41,783 bases of DNA from Alphaproteobacteria bacterium (lineage in GTDB: Bacteria; Pseudomonadota; Alphaproteobacteria; TMED109), in assembly GCA_021296265.1 (NCBI GenBank), contig JAGWAT010000009.1, positions 70,417 through 112,199 on the forward strand. Reading direction: 5' to 3'. The notes beneath the pieces were generated by a model that was not told the DNA's origin, did no database searches, and worked only from the letters and a program-made list of their open reading frames with translations. Shown here one piece after another: positions 17,736 through 25,415 of the stretch. Numbering within the stretch: position 1 is the first letter of the stretch; each line of letters opens with the position of its first letter. The translations under genes were made by a program, and so were the position numbers.

Positions 17736-18218
17736 ATAGCCATTTCCACCGGTGATTCCATTCCCGCCGCCACCCTCCGCCGTCTCAGCGCAGACGGTAT
17801 GGAAGAAGTTTCTACGACCGCGTTCTTCGGCGACCGCAAAGTGGTCCTGTTCTCAGTACCGGGCGCATTCACGCCCACCTGTTCTGCGCAGCACCTCCCG
17901 GGCTTCGTGCAGAACGCCGATGCGATCAAGGCGAAGGGCGTCGACGAGATCATCTGCATCGCCGTCAACGATGCGTTCGTGATGGACGCCTGGGGCAAGA
18001 GCCAGAACACCGGCGCTTCCGTGACGCTGCTCTCCGACGGAAACGGCGAGTTCACGCAGGCGCTCGGTCTGGGGCTGGACGGCACCGGCTTCGGCCTCGG
18101 CCAGCGTGGACAGCGGTTCGCGATGGTGGTGGAGAACGGCACGGTCACCCACCTGGCCGTCGAGGAGCCGGGCGCGTTCGAAGTATCGAGCGCCGAGAGG
18201 ATCCTGGCCGCCCTCTGA
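17736..18218 (+). CDS. Peroxiredoxin, Prx5 type (apparent ATA start)
   Basis: Thiol peroxidase that reduces hydrogen peroxide and alkyl hydroperoxides. The peroxidatic Cys is at about 49 in PGAFTPTCSAQHLPGF, with a second Cys at about 74 in EIICIAVNDAFVM; the C-terminus is HLAVEEPGAFEVSSAE, typical of the Prx5/AhpC-TSA subfamily. Length from 17736 is 160 residues, the family norm. Normal members begin M-A/T-I-x-x-GD; here AISTGDSIPAATL is preceded by ATA, five bases after GGGAGG (17725-17730). No ATG, GTG or TTG lies in frame between this point and the ATG at about 17801, which would delete 22 conserved residues. So either ATA is the start or an ATG has been mutated or misread. It is 74 bases after the dsbD-like gene, which fits a shared thiol-redox role. 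Confidence 0.9.
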   Translation: MAISTGDSIPAATLRRLSADGMEEVSTTAFFGDRKVVLFSVPGAFTPTCSAQHLPGFVQNADAIKAKGVDEIICIAVNDAFVMDAWGKSQNTGASVTLLSDGNGEFTQALGLGLDGTGFGLGQRGQRFAMVVENGTVTHLAVEEPGAFEVSSAERILAAL

Positions 18219-18258
18219 TGCCGCGCGGCGCCGTGCGGCCTGCCGGGGATTGCTGCCG

Positions 18259-19914
18259 ATGAGCGAGACTTCCGCACAACCCCCCGAGCGCGAAGCCATG
18301 GAGTTCGACGTGGTGATCGTTGGCGCCGGGCCCGCCGGCCTGGCGGCCGCCATCCGGCTTCGCCAGCTGGCCGACGAAACCGGCCGGGACATCTCGGTGT
18401 GCGTCGTGGAGAAGGGCCCCGAAGTCGGTGCCCACACGCTGTCGGGGGCCATCCTGGACCCGCGCGGTCTCGATGAACTGCTTCCCGACTGGCGAACCCT
18501 CGACGCGCCGGTTCGGACGCAGGTCCGGGAGGAACGCCTGCTCTTCCTCGGGGCGAAGCGCAGCTTCGCCTGGCCGCACGCCCTGCTGCCGCCCGCCATG
18601 CGGAACGAGGGAAACTACGTCATCAGTCTCGGCAACCTCTGCCGCTGGCTCGCCGGACGGGCCGAGGACCTGGGCGCTGCTGTCTTCCCCGGCTTTGCGG
18701 CGACCGAACTGCTCATGGACGGCGAACGAGTGTCGGGAGTTGCGACGGGTGACATGGGGCTGGCCGAGGACGGCGCACGGGGCCCTGCGTGGCAGCCGGG
18801 GGTCGAGCTCCGCGCCACCTTCACGCTGCTGGCGGAGGGCTGCCGCGGGAGCCTCGGCAAGCAGGCCATTCGCCGCTTCAACCTCGATCGGGACAGTGAG
18901 CACCAGACGTACGGACTCGGCCTCAAGGAACTGTGGGAAATTGCGCCCGAGCGCCACCAGCCGGGCCTCGTCCTCCACAGCGCCGGCTGGCCGTTACCCG
19001 CCGACACCTACGGCGGGTCGTTCCTCTACCACTTGGGGGACTGCCAGGTAGCCGTCGGCTTCGTGGTCGGGCTCGACTATCCGAATCCACACCTCAGCCC
19101 GTTTGACGAGTTCCAGCGGTTCAAGACCCATCCCGCGATCCGGCCGACGTTCGAGGGCGGCCGGCGCATCGCGTATGGCGCCCGCGCCCTCAACGAGGGC
19201 GGGCCGCAGAGTCTGCCCCGGCTGGTATTTCCGGGCGGCGCGCTACTCGGCTGCGATGCCGGCACCCTGAACGTTCCCCGCCTCAAGGGCACCCACACGG
19301 CCATCAAGTCGGGCTCGTGCGCCGCCGAGGCGGTTGCCCGGGCCCTGGCCGACGGCGGCGCCGAGTGCAGTGCCTACGATGCGGAGTTCCGGGCATCCTG
19401 GGCGTACCGTGAATTGCTGCAGGGTCGGAACGTGCGCCCGGGATTTCGCTACGGGCGGTTCTGGGGAACGGTCCATGCCGGCATCGACCAGATCCTGCTC
19501 CGAGGCAGGGCGCCGTGGACCCTCCACCACGGTGAACCAGACCACGCCAGCCTGGACGATGCCGCCGCGGCGTCACCGATCACCTACCCGAAACCCGATG
19601 GTGAGATCACGTTTGATCGCCTGACCAACGTGGCGTTTTCCGGAACCAACCACGAAGAAGGCCAGCCGTGCCACCTGCAGCTGGCTGATACGGAGGTTCC
19701 GCTGAACGTGAACCTCGCCCGTTACGACGGGCCGGAGCAGCGGTACTGTCCGGCGGGTGTCTATGAGTTTGTGGTCGAGGAGGGCGCGCAACGACTGCGG
19801 ATCAACGCACCCAACTGCCTGCACTGCAAGGCCTGCGATATCAAGGATCCGACTCAGAACATCACCTGGGTTCCGCCACAAGGTGGCGAAGGCCCCCGCT
19901 ATCCCAACATGTGA
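18259..19914 (+). CDS. Electron transfer flavoprotein-ubiquinone oxidoreductase
   Basis: Inner-membrane FAD/4Fe-4S enzyme that passes electrons from ETF (fed by acyl-CoA, dimethylglycine and sarcosine dehydrogenases) to ubiquinone. 551 residues, normal length. The FAD-binding dinucleotide motif VIVGAGPAGLAAAIRL is at about 17-32. The 4Fe-4S ligands are the Cys of RYCPAGVYEF and the three of NCLHCKACDIKDP near the C-terminus, followed by the family ending NITWVPPQGGEGPRYPNM. The ATG at 18259 gives the usual short leader before the FAD domain; a second ATG at 18298 (MEFDVVIVG) is possible. It starts 40 bases after the peroxiredoxin gene. Glycine and one-carbon metabolism can feed ETF through sarcosine or dimethylglycine, a possible link to the gcv genes, but this is inference. 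Confidence 0.96.
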   Translation: MSETSAQPPEREAMEFDVVIVGAGPAGLAAAIRLRQLADETGRDISVCVVEKGPEVGAHTLSGAILDPRGLDELLPDWRTLDAPVRTQVREERLLFLGAKRSFAWPHALLPPAMRNEGNYVISLGNLCRWLAGRAEDLGAAVFPGFAATELLMDGERVSGVATGDMGLAEDGARGPAWQPGVELRATFTLLAEGCRGSLGKQAIRRFNLDRDSEHQTYGLGLKELWEIAPERHQPGLVLHSAGWPLPADTYGGSFLYHLGDCQVAVGFVVGLDYPNPHLSPFDEFQRFKTHPAIRPTFEGGRRIAYGARALNEGGPQSLPRLVFPGGALLGCDAGTLNVPRLKGTHTAIKSGSCAAEAVARALADGGAECSAYDAEFRASWAYRELLQGRNVRPGFRYGRFWGTVHAGIDQILLRGRAPWTLHHGEPDHASLDDAAAASPITYPKPDGEITFDRLTNVAFSGTNHEEGQPCHLQLADTEVPLNVNLARYDGPEQRYCPAGVYEFVVEEGAQRLRINAPNCLHCKACDIKDPTQNITWVPPQGGEGPRYPNM

Positions 19915-19922
19915 ATTTGCCC

Positions 19923-21053
19923 ATGCGCACCTTTGCTGTGTCCTTCTTGCTGGCCGGGCTCGCGCTGTTCGGTACCGCTGATTCGATCGCGGACGAACGT
20001 CTCGCCACCATCCGCCTGCCCGAGGGTTTCGTCATCGAGGCATTCGCCGAGGTTCCCAACGCGCGGCAGATGGCCTGGGGCGCGCAAGGCACGCTCTTCG
20101 TCGGCACCCGCCTGGATGGACGGGTGTTTGCGGTGTCTGACGACGATGGCGACGGGCGGGGGGAACGGGTGCGTGTGGTTGCATCAGGACTCCTGATGCC
20201 AAGCGGGGTTGCTTTCCGCGACGGCGCACTCTTCGTAGGCGCCGTCAGCACGATCCTGCGTTTTGACGATATCGAGGCCAGGCTGGACGACCCGCCGCCC
20301 CCCGTCACCGTCACGGACCGGCTTCCCACCGACCAGCACCACGGCTGGAAGGTGCTGGGGTTTGGGCCGGACGGGCGCCTCTACGCTCCGGTCGGCGCGC
20401 CCTGCAACGTCTGCCGGGTCGACGGTTACTACGGCAGCGTGCTCCGGATGCGCCCCGATGGCTCCGAGATCGAGGTCTACGCGCGGGGGGTCCGCAACTC
20501 GGTCGGGCTCGCGTGGCATCCGGTCACCGGCGAGCTTTGGTTCACCGACAACGGCCGCGACCATCTGGGCGATGACCTCCCGCCCGGCGAACTGAACCTG
20601 GCCGACGGGCCGGGCCGCCACTACGGTTTTCCGTTCTGTCACGCCGGCACGCTCCGAGATCCCAACCTGGGAGGCGACGGGGAATGCGCCGACTCGGAGC
20701 CGCCCGCGCAGAGCCTGGGCCCCCACGTGGCGCCGCTCGGCCTTGCCATTCATTCGGGCACCGGGGTGCCTGACAGCTACCGTGGCGCGGTGTTCATTGC
20801 CGAACACGGGTCCTGGAACCGGACACGAAAGATCGGCTACCGAATCACCGTCGTTCGGCTTGCCGACGATCACCGGACCGCGCTGGGCTACGAAACGTTC
20901 GCCGACGGATGGCTCAAGTACGAGCGGGCTTGGGGACGTCCGGCCGATGTGCTTGAGGCGCCGGACGGTTCCCTCATGATTGCCGACGACCGGGCCGGCA
21001 TGATCTATCGAATTCGGTACGTCGGCGAAGGACCCGACGTGGGCGGCGGCTGA
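19923..21053 (+). CDS. Periplasmic sugar/sorbosone dehydrogenase-like beta-propeller
   Basis: Six-bladed beta-propeller of the PQQ-dependent glucose/sorbosone dehydrogenase (GSDH/SNDH) superfamily; members oxidise sugars or alcohols in the periplasm, though many homologues are uncharacterised. From the ATG at 19923, 376 residues with a signal peptide (MRTFAVSFLLAGLALFGTAD). Family features are LPEGFVIEAFAEVPNARQM, HHGWKVLGFGPDGRLYAPVG, YARGVRNSVGLAWHP, LWFTDNGRDHLGDDLPP and IAEHGSWNRTRKIGYRI. A GTG at 19911 overlaps the ETF-QO stop and is an alternative start, suggesting coupling. Cys pairs in APCNVC and FCHAG may be structural. It ends 6 bases from the convergent MORN gene. PQQ dependence is not proven by sequence. 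Confidence 0.85.
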   Translation: MRTFAVSFLLAGLALFGTADSIADERLATIRLPEGFVIEAFAEVPNARQMAWGAQGTLFVGTRLDGRVFAVSDDDGDGRGERVRVVASGLLMPSGVAFRDGALFVGAVSTILRFDDIEARLDDPPPPVTVTDRLPTDQHHGWKVLGFGPDGRLYAPVGAPCNVCRVDGYYGSVLRMRPDGSEIEVYARGVRNSVGLAWHPVTGELWFTDNGRDHLGDDLPPGELNLADGPGRHYGFPFCHAGTLRDPNLGGDGECADSEPPAQSLGPHVAPLGLAIHSGTGVPDSYRGAVFIAEHGSWNRTRKIGYRITVVRLADDHRTALGYETFADGWLKYERAWGRPADVLEAPDGSLMIADDRAGMIYRIRYVGEGPDVGGG

Positions 21054-21059
21054 GCGCGC

Positions 21060-23819
21060 CTACTCGCTTTCGACCCGCGTGCCGTCGGGATAGGTCGTCA
21101 CGGTCCGGCCTTGCGCCGCACCGTTCTCGAAGATCGCTTCGAGCTTCACACCGTTCGCGTAGGTCAGAATCCCGGGACCATGGAAGGTGCCGTTTTCGAA
21201 TCCGCCTTCGTACCGGGTGCCGTCCGGATACACGAGCACGCCCTGTCCAGTCTGCTGTCCGCCTGAGATCCCACCCTCGTACCGGGTACCGTCCGCGTAG
21301 AGGACCGTAGCTGATCCCTCAAGGCGGTCGCCGTTCTCGTACGTCCCGGCAAACTTGCTTCCATTGGGGTGTGTGTACGTACCCTCACCGTGGAACCGGT
21401 TGTTCCGGAAGGCACCTTCGTAGGTCGCACCGTCCGCAAACCGGTAGACGCCGTGCCCCTCGCGGCGGCCGTCGACGAACTCGCCCTCGTAGGTAGTCCC
21501 GTCGGCAAACCGGAACACGCCCTGCCCTTCGCGCTGGCCGTCGACGAACGTGCCTTCATACGTCGCGCCGTCAGAAAGCGTCAGCTTGCCGACACCGGAC
21601 ATGGTGCCCGCGACGAAGTCCCCCTCATAGGCGCCGCCGAGGGCGAACGTCAGCGTACCGGGGCCGGTCATGGCGTTGTCCACGAATGCACCGACGTAGA
21701 TGTTGCCGTTGGCAAACGTCAGCGTACCGGCACCGTGCCGGCGGCCGTTCTCGTACGTCCCCGAGTAGGTCTCGACCTCCGGGTGCGTGTACGTGCCCGC
21801 ACCGTGGAACTGGTTGTCGCGGAATGCGCCCTCGTAGGTTCGGCCATCGACAAACCGGTACACGCCCTCACCCGTGCGCTGCCCGGCCAGGAAGTCCCCC
21901 TCGTACACGTCGCCACTCTGAAAAGCCAAGGTACCTGCTCCGGCCGGTTGGCCATCGACGAAGCCGCCTTCGTACCGGCTCCCGTCCGAGTACACCATCG
22001 TTCCGGTCCCGCTGCGGCGCTCCCCGCGTTCGTAGGTACCGGTGAAGCTGCTGCCGTCCGGGTGGGTGTACGTACCCTCGCCGTGGAACTGGTCTGCCTC
22101 GAACGCTCCTTCGTACCGCGCTCCGTCTGCGAACTCCAGCAGGCCCTGACCCGACCAGGTGCCGTCCCGAAAGTCCCCCTCATACCGCAAGCCGTCCGCT
22201 GCGCTGAGCACGCCTCGACCTTCCCGCCTAGCCGCAGCGAAGTCGCCCTCGTAGACATCGCCATTCGCAAACCGGAATACTCCCCGGCCGTCGGGCAGGC
22301 CGTCCACGAAATCACCCTCGTAGACATCGCCGTTCGCGAACGTAAGCGTTCCGGTGCCATTCATGATGCCGTCGCGGATGTCGCCCACGGAACGGCTACC
22401 GTCGGCATACACCAGTGTCCCCGAACCCTGCACCAGCGTGCCGTTCTCGTATGTTCCGGTGTATGCGCTCCCATTCGGGTGCGTGTACGTGCCCTCGCCG
22501 TGAAACTGATTGGCCACGAAGGCGCCCTCATAGGTCGCTCCGTCGGCAAACCGGAACACGCCTTGCCCGTCACGTCGGCCGTCGACGAACTCGCCTTCGT
22601 AGGTGCCGCCGGCGGCAAACGTCAGCGTGCCGGTGCCCGCCATGACGCCGGCAGCAAAAGTGCCGACGTAGACATTGCCATCGGCGAAGGTCAGCGTGCC
22701 GGTGCCGTGCCGGTGGCCGCTCTCGTACGCGCCCGAGTAGGTGACTCCGTCTGGTTCAACGTACGTGCCCTCGCCGTGGAACTGGTTGCCGCGGAACTCA
22801 CCCTCGTACGTTCTGCCGTCGGTAAACCGCTGCACCCCCCGACCCTCCCGGCTGCCCGCCACGAAGTCGCCCTCGTACACGTCGCCGCCCTGGAACGTGA
22901 GTGTGCCGACCCCCGCTGGCTGGCCAGCCACGAACGGTCCCTCGTACACGTCACCGCGCGCGAACGTGAGCTTGCCAGTGCCGGTTCTCTGGCCGGCCAC
23001 GAACTCACCTTCATAGACATCGCCGCTCTGAAACGTGAGCTTGCCGACCCCCGCCGGCCGGCCGGTCACGAACGGCCCTTCGTACACGTCACCGCGCTGG
23101 TACGTCAGCCTGCCGACCCCCGCCGGCTGACCATCCACGAACTCCCCCTCGTACACGTCGCCGCCCTGGAACGTGAGCTTGCCGACGCCGGCCCACTGAC
23201 CATCCACGAACTCCCCTTCATAGAGGCTCCCGTCCGCGTACACCCGTGTCCCCGAGCCGCTGCGTCGCTCTCCACGTTCGTAGGTGCCGCTGAAGCTGCT
23301 GCCGTCCGGGTGCGTGTACGTGCCCTCGCCGTGGAACTGGTCGTCCTCGAACGCCCCCTCGTACCGCGTCCCCTCCGCGAACTCCAGCACGCCCTGACCC
23401 CACCGCGCACCAGCCTGGAACTCGCCCTCGTACCGGGAGCCGTCGGCAAACCGGAACACCCCTCGGCCGTCGGGCCGGCCAGCCGCAAAGCCGCCCTCGT
23501 AGAGATCGCCGTTCGCGTACACGAGCGCGCCGGTTCCGGACATCTCGCCGTCGACGAACGTGCCCTCATATTCATTGCCGTTCGCGAACGTGAGCTTCCC
23601 CGAACCATGCATGACGCCGGCGCGGATCTCGCCGACGTAATGGCTTCCGTCCGCAAAGCGCATCTCGCCCTGCCGCTCGGCATCGGGGACCGGTGCCGGA
23701 TCCGAAGGGGAGGGCGCCTCAACTTCCTCGTTCGTGTCTTGAGCGTGCGCCGGCAGCGCGCCCACGGCTCCGAAAAGCACAAGCAGGGCACCAAGGATGT
23801 GTGCAGCGAGCGCAGGCAT
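21060..23819 (-). CDS. Exported MORN-repeat protein with 37 repeats
   Basis: 919 residues. An N-terminal signal peptide (hydrophobic ILGALLVLFGAVGALPAHA, likely cut after residue 26) is followed by an acidic Pro/Glu/Asp linker to about residue 50. The rest of the protein is MORN repeats of 23 residues (Y-E-G-x-F-x-x-G-x-x-x-G-x-G core): I count 37, four of them 24 long. No enzymatic domain follows; the last repeat runs into RVESE at the stop. MORN units form an extended beta-sheet that in other proteins binds phospholipid or acts as a scaffold. The chosen ATG at 23819 is the only start giving a signal peptide; the frame reaches 24053 but then overlaps lpxC. It starts 44 bases after the lpxC stop on the same strand, so it is probably co-expressed and may act at the envelope. 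Function unknown. Confidence 0.88.
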   Translation of the reverse strand: MPALAAHILGALLVLFGAVGALPAHAQDTNEEVEAPSPSDPAPVPDAERQGEMRFADGSHYVGEIRAGVMHGSGKLTFANGNEYEGTFVDGEMSGTGALVYANGDLYEGGFAAGRPDGRGVFRFADGSRYEGEFQAGARWGQGVLEFAEGTRYEGAFEDDQFHGEGTYTHPDGSSFSGTYERGERRSGSGTRVYADGSLYEGEFVDGQWAGVGKLTFQGGDVYEGEFVDGQPAGVGRLTYQRGDVYEGPFVTGRPAGVGKLTFQSGDVYEGEFVAGQRTGTGKLTFARGDVYEGPFVAGQPAGVGTLTFQGGDVYEGDFVAGSREGRGVQRFTDGRTYEGEFRGNQFHGEGTYVEPDGVTYSGAYESGHRHGTGTLTFADGNVYVGTFAAGVMAGTGTLTFAAGGTYEGEFVDGRRDGQGVFRFADGATYEGAFVANQFHGEGTYTHPNGSAYTGTYENGTLVQGSGTLVYADGSRSVGDIRDGIMNGTGTLTFANGDVYEGDFVDGLPDGRGVFRFANGDVYEGDFAAARREGRGVLSAADGLRYEGDFRDGTWSGQGLLEFADGARYEGAFEADQFHGEGTYTHPDGSSFTGTYERGERRSGTGTMVYSDGSRYEGGFVDGQPAGAGTLAFQSGDVYEGDFLAGQRTGEGVYRFVDGRTYEGAFRDNQFHGAGTYTHPEVETYSGTYENGRRHGAGTLTFANGNIYVGAFVDNAMTGPGTLTFALGGAYEGDFVAGTMSGVGKLTLSDGATYEGTFVDGQREGQGVFRFADGTTYEGEFVDGRREGHGVYRFADGATYEGAFRNNRFHGEGTYTHPNGSKFAGTYENGDRLEGSATVLYADGTRYEGGISGGQQTGQGVLVYPDGTRYEGGFENGTFHGPGILTYANGVKLEAIFENGAAQGRTVTTYPDGTRVESE
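21282..23639 (-). repeat. Large internal duplication within the MORN array
   Basis: Repeats 1-18 (codons 61-476, bases 23639-22392) align in order with repeats 19-34 (codons 477-846, bases 22391-21282). Repeats 1-6 match 19-24, including the pair QFHGEGTYTHPDGSSF then GTYERGERRSG in both. Repeats 12-18 match 26-34. Copy 1 carries five near-identical QPAGVG-type repeats (7-11) where copy 2 has one (25); copy 2 has two extra repeats around 30 and 32. So a block of roughly 16-18 repeats was duplicated, followed by local expansion. Confidence 0.75.
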
Positions 23820-23863
23820 GCGCCGGAGTGTAGCCGATGCGGGAAGTCTTCCGGCCGGCTCCG

Positions 23864-24778
23864 TCAGGCTACCGCAATCCGGGTCTCGGCCTGGGCCCAA
23901 GTCCCCGAGGTCGGCGGGCATGTACTCCGTTCCCAGTTGGCAGGCTCGGAGAAAATCGCGGTCAGAAGCCGGCGATTCAACTCGTGCCCACCCCGCACGA
24001 AGGTCACCCGCCCGAGCAGCGGCGCCCCCGCAAGATAGAGGTCGCCGACGCAATCGAGCACCTTGTGCCGAATGAACTCGTCGGGGTAGCGAAGCCCCCC
24101 CTTCGCGTCGACACGCATGCCATCGACCTGGATCACGTTCCCCGGGTTCCCGCCCAGCCCGAGTCCCTGGCTGAGCAGGGTTTCCGCATCCGCGGGCGTA
24201 CAGAAGGTCCGGGCGGGGGAAATCTCATCCCTGAATCGTGATCCCTCAAGCGTGAATTCGTAACTTTGCCGACCGATTGCCGTGTCCGGGTAATCAATGG
24301 TTCCGCGCACCACGAACGCCTCAGCGGGTTCCATCTGTACGGAGCCCATGCCGTTGTCCACGCGCACCGGCCGACGAACCCGGATCCAGGACCTCAGACG
24401 GTCCTGTGCCACCACTCCGGCTTCCTCGAGCGGGCCCACGAGGCCAACGGCCGAACCATCCAGAATCGGCACTTCGCGTCCGTTGAGTTCCACCCGGGCA
24501 TTGTCGATGCCCAGTCCAGCAAACGTGGCCAGCAGATGCTCAACGGTCCAGATCGATGCGCCGTTGCCAGCGCCGAGCATCATCGTCCGACGCCTGGCAT
24601 CGGTGACCCGCCCCCACTGTGCAGGAACTTCCGGCGACCCGGGCAGATCCGTCCGCACCAGGACGATGCCGGTGCCAGCGGACGCCGGATGGATCGTCAT
24701 CGCCACCGGTTCACCGGTGAATAGCCCAAGGTCGTGGAACGTCACGGGTCTGGCAACGGTGTGTTCAAGTGCGCGCAT
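23864..24778 (-). CDS. lpxC: UDP-3-O-acyl-N-acetylglucosamine deacetylase LpxC
   Basis: Zinc enzyme that catalyses the committed step of lipid A synthesis in the cytoplasm. From the ATG at 24778, 304 residues. The zinc ligands are H81 (in WTVEHLLATF, with the catalytic Glu just before), H238 and D242 (in RHKVLDCVGDLYL), and the general acid/base His is at 265 in RGGHELNRR. NGREVPILDGSA and SPARTFC are also family stretches. ATGs at 24793 and 24796 are possible alternative starts; 24778 has a weak GGGA seven bases upstream and gives the usual short N-terminus. In many Alphaproteobacteria lpxC lies between the ftsZ region and bamD; here it is separated from bamD by about 18 kb and followed instead by the MORN gene. 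Confidence 0.95.
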   Translation of the reverse strand: MRALEHTVARPVTFHDLGLFTGEPVAMTIHPASAGTGIVLVRTDLPGSPEVPAQWGRVTDARRRTMMLGAGNGASIWTVEHLLATFAGLGIDNARVELNGREVPILDGSAVGLVGPLEEAGVVAQDRLRSWIRVRRPVRVDNGMGSVQMEPAEAFVVRGTIDYPDTAIGRQSYEFTLEGSRFRDEISPARTFCTPADAETLLSQGLGLGGNPGNVIQVDGMRVDAKGGLRYPDEFIRHKVLDCVGDLYLAGAPLLGRVTFVRGGHELNRRLLTAIFSEPANWERSTCPPTSGTWAQAETRIAVA

Positions 24779-25415
24779 CGGCGATCCCGGCATCATCAAC
24801 AATACGAGCTCCAAGCCCGTAAGCGGCGGTACAGTGCCTGGCCGAGGAACGCCGCATCCCGCTGGCGAAGCGGTTCCACGGACGCCAGACGCGACGCAGC
24901 CGGAGCCAATGTATCGCCGGGGCGCCGGATCGGCCAATCAACAATCATTTCAATTGTTGCAGTGTCTCGAACATTCCAGTCGGGGAAAGCGAAGCAAGAT
25001 GGAACGGGTGCCGGTGATCGAACCATGCGGACGCATGCTGTACACGGGCAAAGTTGCCCGCCCCTTCCCCGCCGTGGCCGTCCACCGGATCAGCGCAGGG
25101 GACGGAATGGGGCTTCCCTGCGGCGGCGAGGTTCGAACAAGGTGATGGGCCCCCAACGTATCCCCCATCGCAACCGCCCGTCCTTCTCCAGCAGCCGTCA
25201 ATCTCCGCGTGTCCAGCCGCAGGAATTATCGCGCCATCGTGCCGGCGCGAACCCGCGTGGCACTCCTGCGGGATGCCATCCCGTCGCGGAAGCGGTAGAA
25301 CACGCATCTGCCGCGGCCCCGCCGGACCGCCACTTGCAGCGGCAATGCATCGGCCCGGTGATGTCCGGGCACCCGTTGGCTCAGGTCCGCACGTGCACCT
25401 CCGCAGGGAATTCCC
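24779..25415. other. Gene-free divergent region between lpxC and the esterase gene
   Basis: About 640 bases with no supported gene. Frames crossing it (for example 24734-25438 on the plus strand) give Arg/Ser/His-rich nonsense. It contains one perfect inverted repeat (24939-24959). Long for a simple divergent promoter region; it may hold regulatory elements or decayed sequence I cannot identify. Confidence 0.45.
24939..24959. promoter_or_regulatory. AT-rich perfect inverted repeat, possible operator
   Basis: CAACAAT (24939-24945) and ATTGTTG (24953-24959) are exact reverse complements around a 7-base spacer, in an AT-rich patch within GC-rich DNA, 160 bases upstream of lpxC. The size suits a dimeric repressor site. 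No regulator gene is adjacent. Confidence 0.35.

Follow-up and report, generated by a model that had tools for sequence, protein, structure and literature searches.

MORN1 proteins are eukaryotic and cytoskeletal. Those of Trypanosoma, Toxoplasma, and Plasmodium (PDB 6t4r, 6t6q, and 6t4d) are the closest described counterparts of the bacterial protein reported here, with which they share a MORN-only architecture of 23-residue β-hairpin repeats carrying GxG and YEG motifs. In the portion of PMC7725318 accessible to us, MORN repeat numbers are given as 2 to over 20, the C-terminal repeats of three eukaryotic MORN1 proteins form an antiparallel dimer, and the conclusion drawn there is that MORN repeats serve as protein-protein modules. 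MORN repeats are widespread, and the accessible literature leaves their bacterial roles hardly known. According to excerpts of two papers, MORN2-domain proteins occur in outer-membrane vesicles of Fusobacterium (PMC10434195), and a Campylobacter protein containing a MORN-variant domain reportedly inhibits biofilm (PMC11595200). The gene considered here occupies positions 21060..23819 (minus strand) of a 41,783-nucleotide stretch of an Alphaproteobacteria bacterium (contig JAGWAT010000009.1, positions 70,417 to 112,199; hereafter the window) and encodes a MORN-only, probably exported protein of 919 residues and 37 repeats.

By every feature tested, this protein is a member of the MORN repeat family. 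We consider it probable that it represents a Sec-exported, likely periplasmic, rod-like scaffold consisting only of MORN repeats, with a conserved C-terminal cap, that was extended by block duplication. New are the length of the array, the relatives with half and a quarter of its repeats at the place after lpxC, and a unit count that is constant within each group. No title on this protein was among the matches listed in the literature on MORN repeats, and a literature search found no paper joining MORN and lpxC. TbMORN1 has 15 repeats rather than 37 and a YEGEW motif where the window protein mostly reads YEGxF (PMC7725318, in the portion accessible). The Fusobacterium and Campylobacter proteins are bacterial like the window protein, and some reside in outer-membrane vesicles, but their domains are of the MORN2 or MORN-variant type rather than MORN, and lpxC and block duplication go unmentioned in the excerpts cited above.

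The open reading frame runs from an ATG at 23819 to a stop at 21060 on the minus strand; plus-strand coding at 21060-23819 was rejected owing to the presence of stops. Pfam MORN (PF02493) matches the product with an E value of 3.4e-184 and 586.6 bits against a gathering cut-off of 22.5, and all 27 single-repeat PF02493 matches (E <=0.001) across the bacterium's own 2.5-Mb genome lie within this gene. An anchor parse resolves a signal-peptide-like N-terminus, a short linker, and a half-repeat ahead of unit 1, followed by 37 MORN units of 23 residues each (24 in units 6, 18, 24, and 34; 27 in the last, which ends in a tail of few residues). The units carry the GxG and YEG(E)-aromatic motifs by which a MORN unit is defined in the accessible part of PMC7725318, have the 23-residue length of a MORN repeat, and form two strands each in the structure model. 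Pfam score and unit parse thus bear out an earlier annotation made from the letters alone (the sequence-only reading), which had described a 919-residue product almost wholly composed of 37 MORN repeats. A second Pfam family, BsuPI, reaches 30.2 bits against a cut-off of 22.9 with no single stretch passing alone, and is taken as a by-product of the β repeats; no NCBIfam family matched the 919-residue protein at E <=0.001. Past the guessed cleavage site, the chain comprises 893 residues with an isoelectric point (pI) of 4.54, 20.7% glycine, 7 Lys, 59 Arg, and no Cys.

Self-alignment of the units divides most of the array into two block copies, comprising repeats 1-18 (22392..23639, minus strand) and repeats 19-34 (21282..22391, minus strand), the latter collinear with repeats 1-15 of an 18-repeat orthologue (G002, described below). 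The ordered alignment of units 1-18 with 19-34 scored 558, compared with a mean of 268 (standard deviation 40) and a best of 431 over 2000 permutations; another gap score gave a z of 7.2. Among lags of 1-699 residues, the best 92-residue self-identity falls at lag 416 (79%), followed by lags 23 and 324 (73%). The two-tier duplication proposed in the sequence-only reading is thereby supported, the off-diagonal at about 416 residues being the strongest self-match, and relatives suggest its direction. When the copies are compared directly, four units of copy 1 (7-10) and two of copy 2 (30-31) are left without a partner; units 30 and 31 are considered old because the short form has partners for both. 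Relative to that form, copy 1 has extra units 2 and 7-10 and is without two others, and copy 2 has the extra unit 21. In the unit alignment, repeats 7-11 of copy 1 (22878..23222, minus strand) face the single repeat 25 of copy 2, a local expansion found in all three long genomes; the suggestion of five QPAGVG-type repeats against one therefore holds in its count, except that unit 10 reads QRTGTG. The recurring module QFHGEGTYTHP, placed earlier at repeats 5, 13, 17, 23, 27, and 33, has exact copies at 5, 17, and 23; the copies at 27 and 33 each differ by one residue and that at 13 by two. No exact direct repeat within the gene exceeds 32 bp, a length below that of ordinary short reads. On this indirect evidence, and because three genomes of the genus display an identical unit order, an assembly artefact is judged an unlikely source of the 37-unit array.

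The gene is present in all seven species-level genomes sampled from the genus, at one locus and in two forms. Three genomes (G000, G001, and G006) encode 37 repeats with 89-90% identity to the window protein, and the remaining four (G002-G005) encode 479 residues with 18 repeats, sharing both termini with the long form and differing from it in having one block instead of two. All 18 units of the G002 protein pair one for one with units 19-37 when unit 21 is skipped (z 12.1), and short forms are 71-72% identical to the window protein in the alignment of six of the seven congeners that served as input to the first structure model, in which three of the four short forms were included. The two copies and the short block share 71-75% identity with one another, compared with 86-93% for each copy across the long species. 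The ratio of nonsynonymous to synonymous substitution rates (dN/dS), calculated like the long/short MORN dS for six congeners with G003 left out, is 0.144-0.160 among the three long forms and 0.052-0.092 among three of the four short forms, and therefore indicates purifying selection. The unit count is constant within each group (37 in three of three, 18 in four of four). The variation in repeat count between strains raised earlier as a possibility was accordingly not seen among these species-level genomes, nor were the differing counts among close relatives that would mark a hypervariable tandem-repeat surface protein. An inner duplication of the 18-repeat form itself, with units 1-5 matching 10-15, is suggestive only, the halves 1-9 and 10-18 giving p values of 0.003 and 0.0085 in two of the four short genomes.

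Synonymous divergence places the block duplication in time. Copy 1 and copy 2 differ by a dS of 0.56-0.85 and either copy differs from the short block by 0.70-1.10; lpxC, measured in five of the seven genomes, gives 0.80-0.90 for pairs of a long and a short species and 0.18-0.34 for pairs of long species. From this comparison, the duplication appears to be roughly contemporary with the split between long and short forms, or to follow it slightly, and to predate the divergence of the long species. Outside the genus, the MORN protein following lpxC in genera g2, g4, and g5 is built of a leader and an array of about 9 repeats and, on contigs that include one, lies near an ETF-ubiquinone oxidoreductase gene. 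The stop-to-stop frames span 254-273 residues, or 218 in G009, where a contig end truncates the frame. Like the genus form, this protein is encoded after lpxC, but its repeat order is unmatched to that form; the best half-array comparisons of the G010 and G009 proteins with the 18-repeat form gave p values of 0.07 and 0.06. Since repeat orders cannot be matched, the case for descent across genera is made by synteny and general similarity. Unit-by-unit ancestry from these relatives was rejected as not demonstrable, and the data hint, with weak support, at a previous doubling of about 9 repeats to 18. Among the MORN loci compared, the 37-unit arrays of the genus are the longest, the next two having 29 units by a pattern count that undercounts (16 for the 18-repeat form).

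A fold was predicted with AlphaFold2 from six sequences (mean predicted local distance difference test, pLDDT, of 84.8; predicted template modeling score, pTM, of 0.38). The predicted fold is one continuous series of β hairpins, two strands per repeat, with strands spanning residues 49-918 and residues 1-44 of low confidence. Strands in a β sheet lie about 4.8 Å apart, so that 37 repeats of two strands each would have a contour of about 35 nm. The best PDB match by Foldseek was T. gondii MORN1 (6t6q; TMt 0.89, root-mean-square deviation 1.8 over 200 columns) and that by phmmer was P. falciparum MORN1 (6t4d, E 1.4e-42). The 9-repeat relative from G010, less its first residues, was predicted with a pLDDT of 92.1 and a pTM of 0.80. 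The fibre-like scaffold suggested earlier is consistent with this fold and, by analogy, with MORN1; its function as an elongated element is something that we infer. Repeats 35-37 (21063..21281, minus strand) constitute a single-copy C-terminal cap delineated by dN and identity between long and short forms, comparisons from which unit 24 and its counterpart, short unit 5, were left out owing to an indel. Their 87.3% identity between long and short forms is the highest of 15 adjacent triples, and is equaled by 6 of 680 arbitrary triples, itself included; dN is 0.057-0.071 for these repeats, compared with 0.160-0.185 for block units. Such conservation, set beside a monomer prediction, would be compatible with a MORN1-type dimer formed through the C-terminal repeats.

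Residues 1-26 (23742..23819, minus strand), as read from the sequence, resemble a signal peptide with a guessed cleavage after AHA, and a hydrophobic N-terminus ending in an AxA- or VxA-like motif is found in seven of seven congeners, without a basic n-region. The export claimed in the first annotation is suggested by a Sec-signal-like N-terminus in every congener and weakened by the lack of Lys or Arg before the hydrophobic stretch. No surface anchor, autotransporter, type I, or other secretion domain was found among Pfam and NCBIfam matches at E <=0.001; for this reason the periplasm is a simpler guess than the surface display offered as an alternative.

Directly upstream of the MORN gene, separated by 44 bp, lies lpxC (UDP-3-O-acyl-GlcNAc deacetylase; 23864..24937, minus strand), identified by Pfam LpxC (1.2e-85) and by TIGR00325 above its cut-off. 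Its start codon is uncertain, and the frame 23864-24937 has 58 residues ahead of the Pfam domain. Convergent with the pair, and assigned by domain searches and synteny, are a GSDH/PVC-type dehydrogenase-like gene (19911..21053, plus strand), which belongs to the syntenic frame, and an ETF-ubiquinone oxidoreductase gene (18106..19914, plus strand). In seven of seven congeners, lpxC and the MORN gene occupy one locus on the same strand, convergent with the GSDH-like gene; the oxidoreductase gene follows in six, the contig of G006 ending inside the GSDH-like gene, and it is also found near the MORN gene in G007, G009, G010, G014, and G020 of related genera. For the order of this bacterium, 28 genomes were covered, all from one family, and 23 of them yielded an lpxC match; the five without a match are 59-75% complete and were not counted. 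Among the 14 lpxC-bearing genomes in genera g1, g2, g4, and g5, blastp places a MORN frame immediately behind lpxC, on the same strand, in 13. The remaining genome, G009, has a contig that stops 92 bases past lpxC, within what appears by eye to be a signal-peptide start, and another G009 contig ends inside a MORN frame adjoining GSDH-like and oxidoreductase genes. No MORN frame follows lpxC in genera g3, g6, and g8 (0/9 genomes). In the LpxC tree, a single branch (100/99) separates the genera with a MORN frame after lpxC from those without one, with long branches flagged by the program. A very long branch (2.15 changes per column) sets the LpxC of g1 apart from that of the family's other genera. 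At the loci of sister genera that lack the MORN gene (L077-L080, L087, L088, L090, and L091), the stretch immediately past lpxC looks like the end of an opposite-strand gene with a shared motif, ferredoxin-like by eye.

Spacing between lpxC and the MORN gene is 6-8 nt in five g5 genomes (by eye, taking the first ATG), which suggests one transcript with lpxC. A sigma-70 pattern scan called no promoter upstream of the MORN gene. A hexamer identical in seven of seven congeners, TACACT, 7 nt before the ATG (23827..23832, minus strand), is a −10-like candidate and might act as the −10 box for leaderless initiation; no Shine-Dalgarno sequence is obvious by eye around it. A survey of the class with the 247-residue G010 protein, again without its first residues, recorded one locus per genome, not including further MORN genes. 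Matches were obtained in 32 of 240 genomes, three of them from the order of this bacterium; of the remaining 29, 27 each contributed a locus to the test. A general link between lpxC and MORN genes across the class was not found at these 27 loci, and the flanks of about 1.5 kb and the single locus per genome could miss one.

Taken together, these observations can be accommodated by a model in which the product is probably exported by Sec to the periplasm and serves in the envelope as a rod for protein-protein contacts. The conserved C-terminal cap may allow self-association, in the manner of eukaryotic MORN1, while the interior repeats would provide a spacer or a row of binding sites. These interior repeats would have approximately doubled in number when a block of about 15 repeats was duplicated in tandem in the ancestry of the three long-form species, and expression would probably be tied to lpxC or driven by a start of its own just before the ATG. 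Localization, dimer, partner, and the link to lipopolysaccharide (LPS) are parts of this scheme that we infer, and several results weigh against it. The comparison with MORN1 dimerization is an analogy drawn from eukaryotes, and the N-terminus has no Lys or Arg before its hydrophobic stretch. The pTM of 0.38 and the poor quality of two of the five AlphaFold2 models (mean pLDDT 39.6 and 36.9; another reached 75.9) mean that the overall shape or superhelix is not fixed by the model. The 9-repeat relatives show no match in repeat order to the whole 18-repeat form (p 0.14 for G010, 0.22 for G009), the near-trichotomy of the block tree at 71-75% identity may allow a loss of one block in the short lineage, and none of the 27 class loci has lpxC beside the MORN gene.

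The loss of a block has its counterpart in a history in which the ancestor of the genus already had the long form and recombination of one block with the other later produced the 18-repeat form. Tandem blocks are readily deleted in this way, and the near-equidistance of copy 1, copy 2, and the short block speaks for it; the single arrays of about 9 repeats after lpxC in related genera and a copy 1-copy 2 dS no higher than the lpxC value for long versus short species speak against it, and we regard it as unlikely, if worth keeping in view. Block gain is favored over loss, as related genera carry about 9 repeats. A functional partnership with LpxC or LPS assembly, in which an envelope protein has its length or copy number tuned to outer-membrane biogenesis as a tether or ruler between membranes, would explain the placement directly after lpxC in four genera and the small gaps in the window and in g5. 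LpxC is a cytoplasmic enzyme, whereas the MORN protein is apparently exported, and a roughly fourfold length difference between genera fits a fixed gap poorly; with lpxC also occurring without a MORN frame in g3, g6, and g8 and being absent beside the 27 class loci, this partnership seems improbable.

Eukaryote-like repeats could alternatively serve host contact or biofilm formation at the cell surface, as the vesicle-borne Fusobacterium proteins, the Campylobacter biofilm inhibitor, and the eukaryotic MORN1 as closest solved fold might hint. The lack of an anchor or secretion domain and the setting among housekeeping genes, with a short relative in related genera that have genomes of 1.4-1.7 Mb, leave this proposal only a slim chance. 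The genus may be associated with sponges, but literature searches yielded no habitat for it. The name MORN further invites the idea of a lipid-binding protein that shuttles or clusters phospholipids, and TbMORN1 does interact with single phospholipids and copurified with phosphatidylethanolamine in the accessible part of PMC7725318. The same portion reports that no membrane or vesicle binding was found for that MORN-only protein, and the mature window protein is acidic, with its basic residues confined to the 7 Lys and 59 Arg noted above. The phospholipid binding raised in the sequence-only reading is therefore not supported, and we rate it as very unlikely.

For the periplasmic scaffold that we prefer, the proteins of about 9, 18, and 37 repeats beside lpxC offer a length series for asking whether repeat number sets reach, binding capacity, or neither. 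The conserved position after lpxC is a first testable link to the outer membrane, and the constancy of the two forms illustrates that an array of such length can hold its unit count across species divergence. Genomes of the genus measure 2.5-3.8 Mb, compared with 0.8-1.7 Mb in the rest of the family. On a bolder and improbable view, the locus would house an lpxC-linked family of periplasmic MORN rods whose length steps through about 9, 18, and 37 repeats by block doubling at one fixed position, giving naturally graded lengths of an envelope spacer or ruler connected with LPS synthesis, with the lengthening going along with the larger genomes of the genus.

Other MORN proteins were encountered in the surveys. 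In G051, a class relative, the window protein has 20 matches scattered over many contigs (e.g., L016), one of them in a 977-residue frame for which a pattern count gives 29 repeats; MORN sequences have thus expanded in a genome of no more than 1.2 Mb. In G011, from a related genus, the frame 9161-12520 of L065 encodes a different MORN protein with spaced MORN blocks, the C-terminal stretch of which looks by eye like what we presume to be a caspase-type protease.

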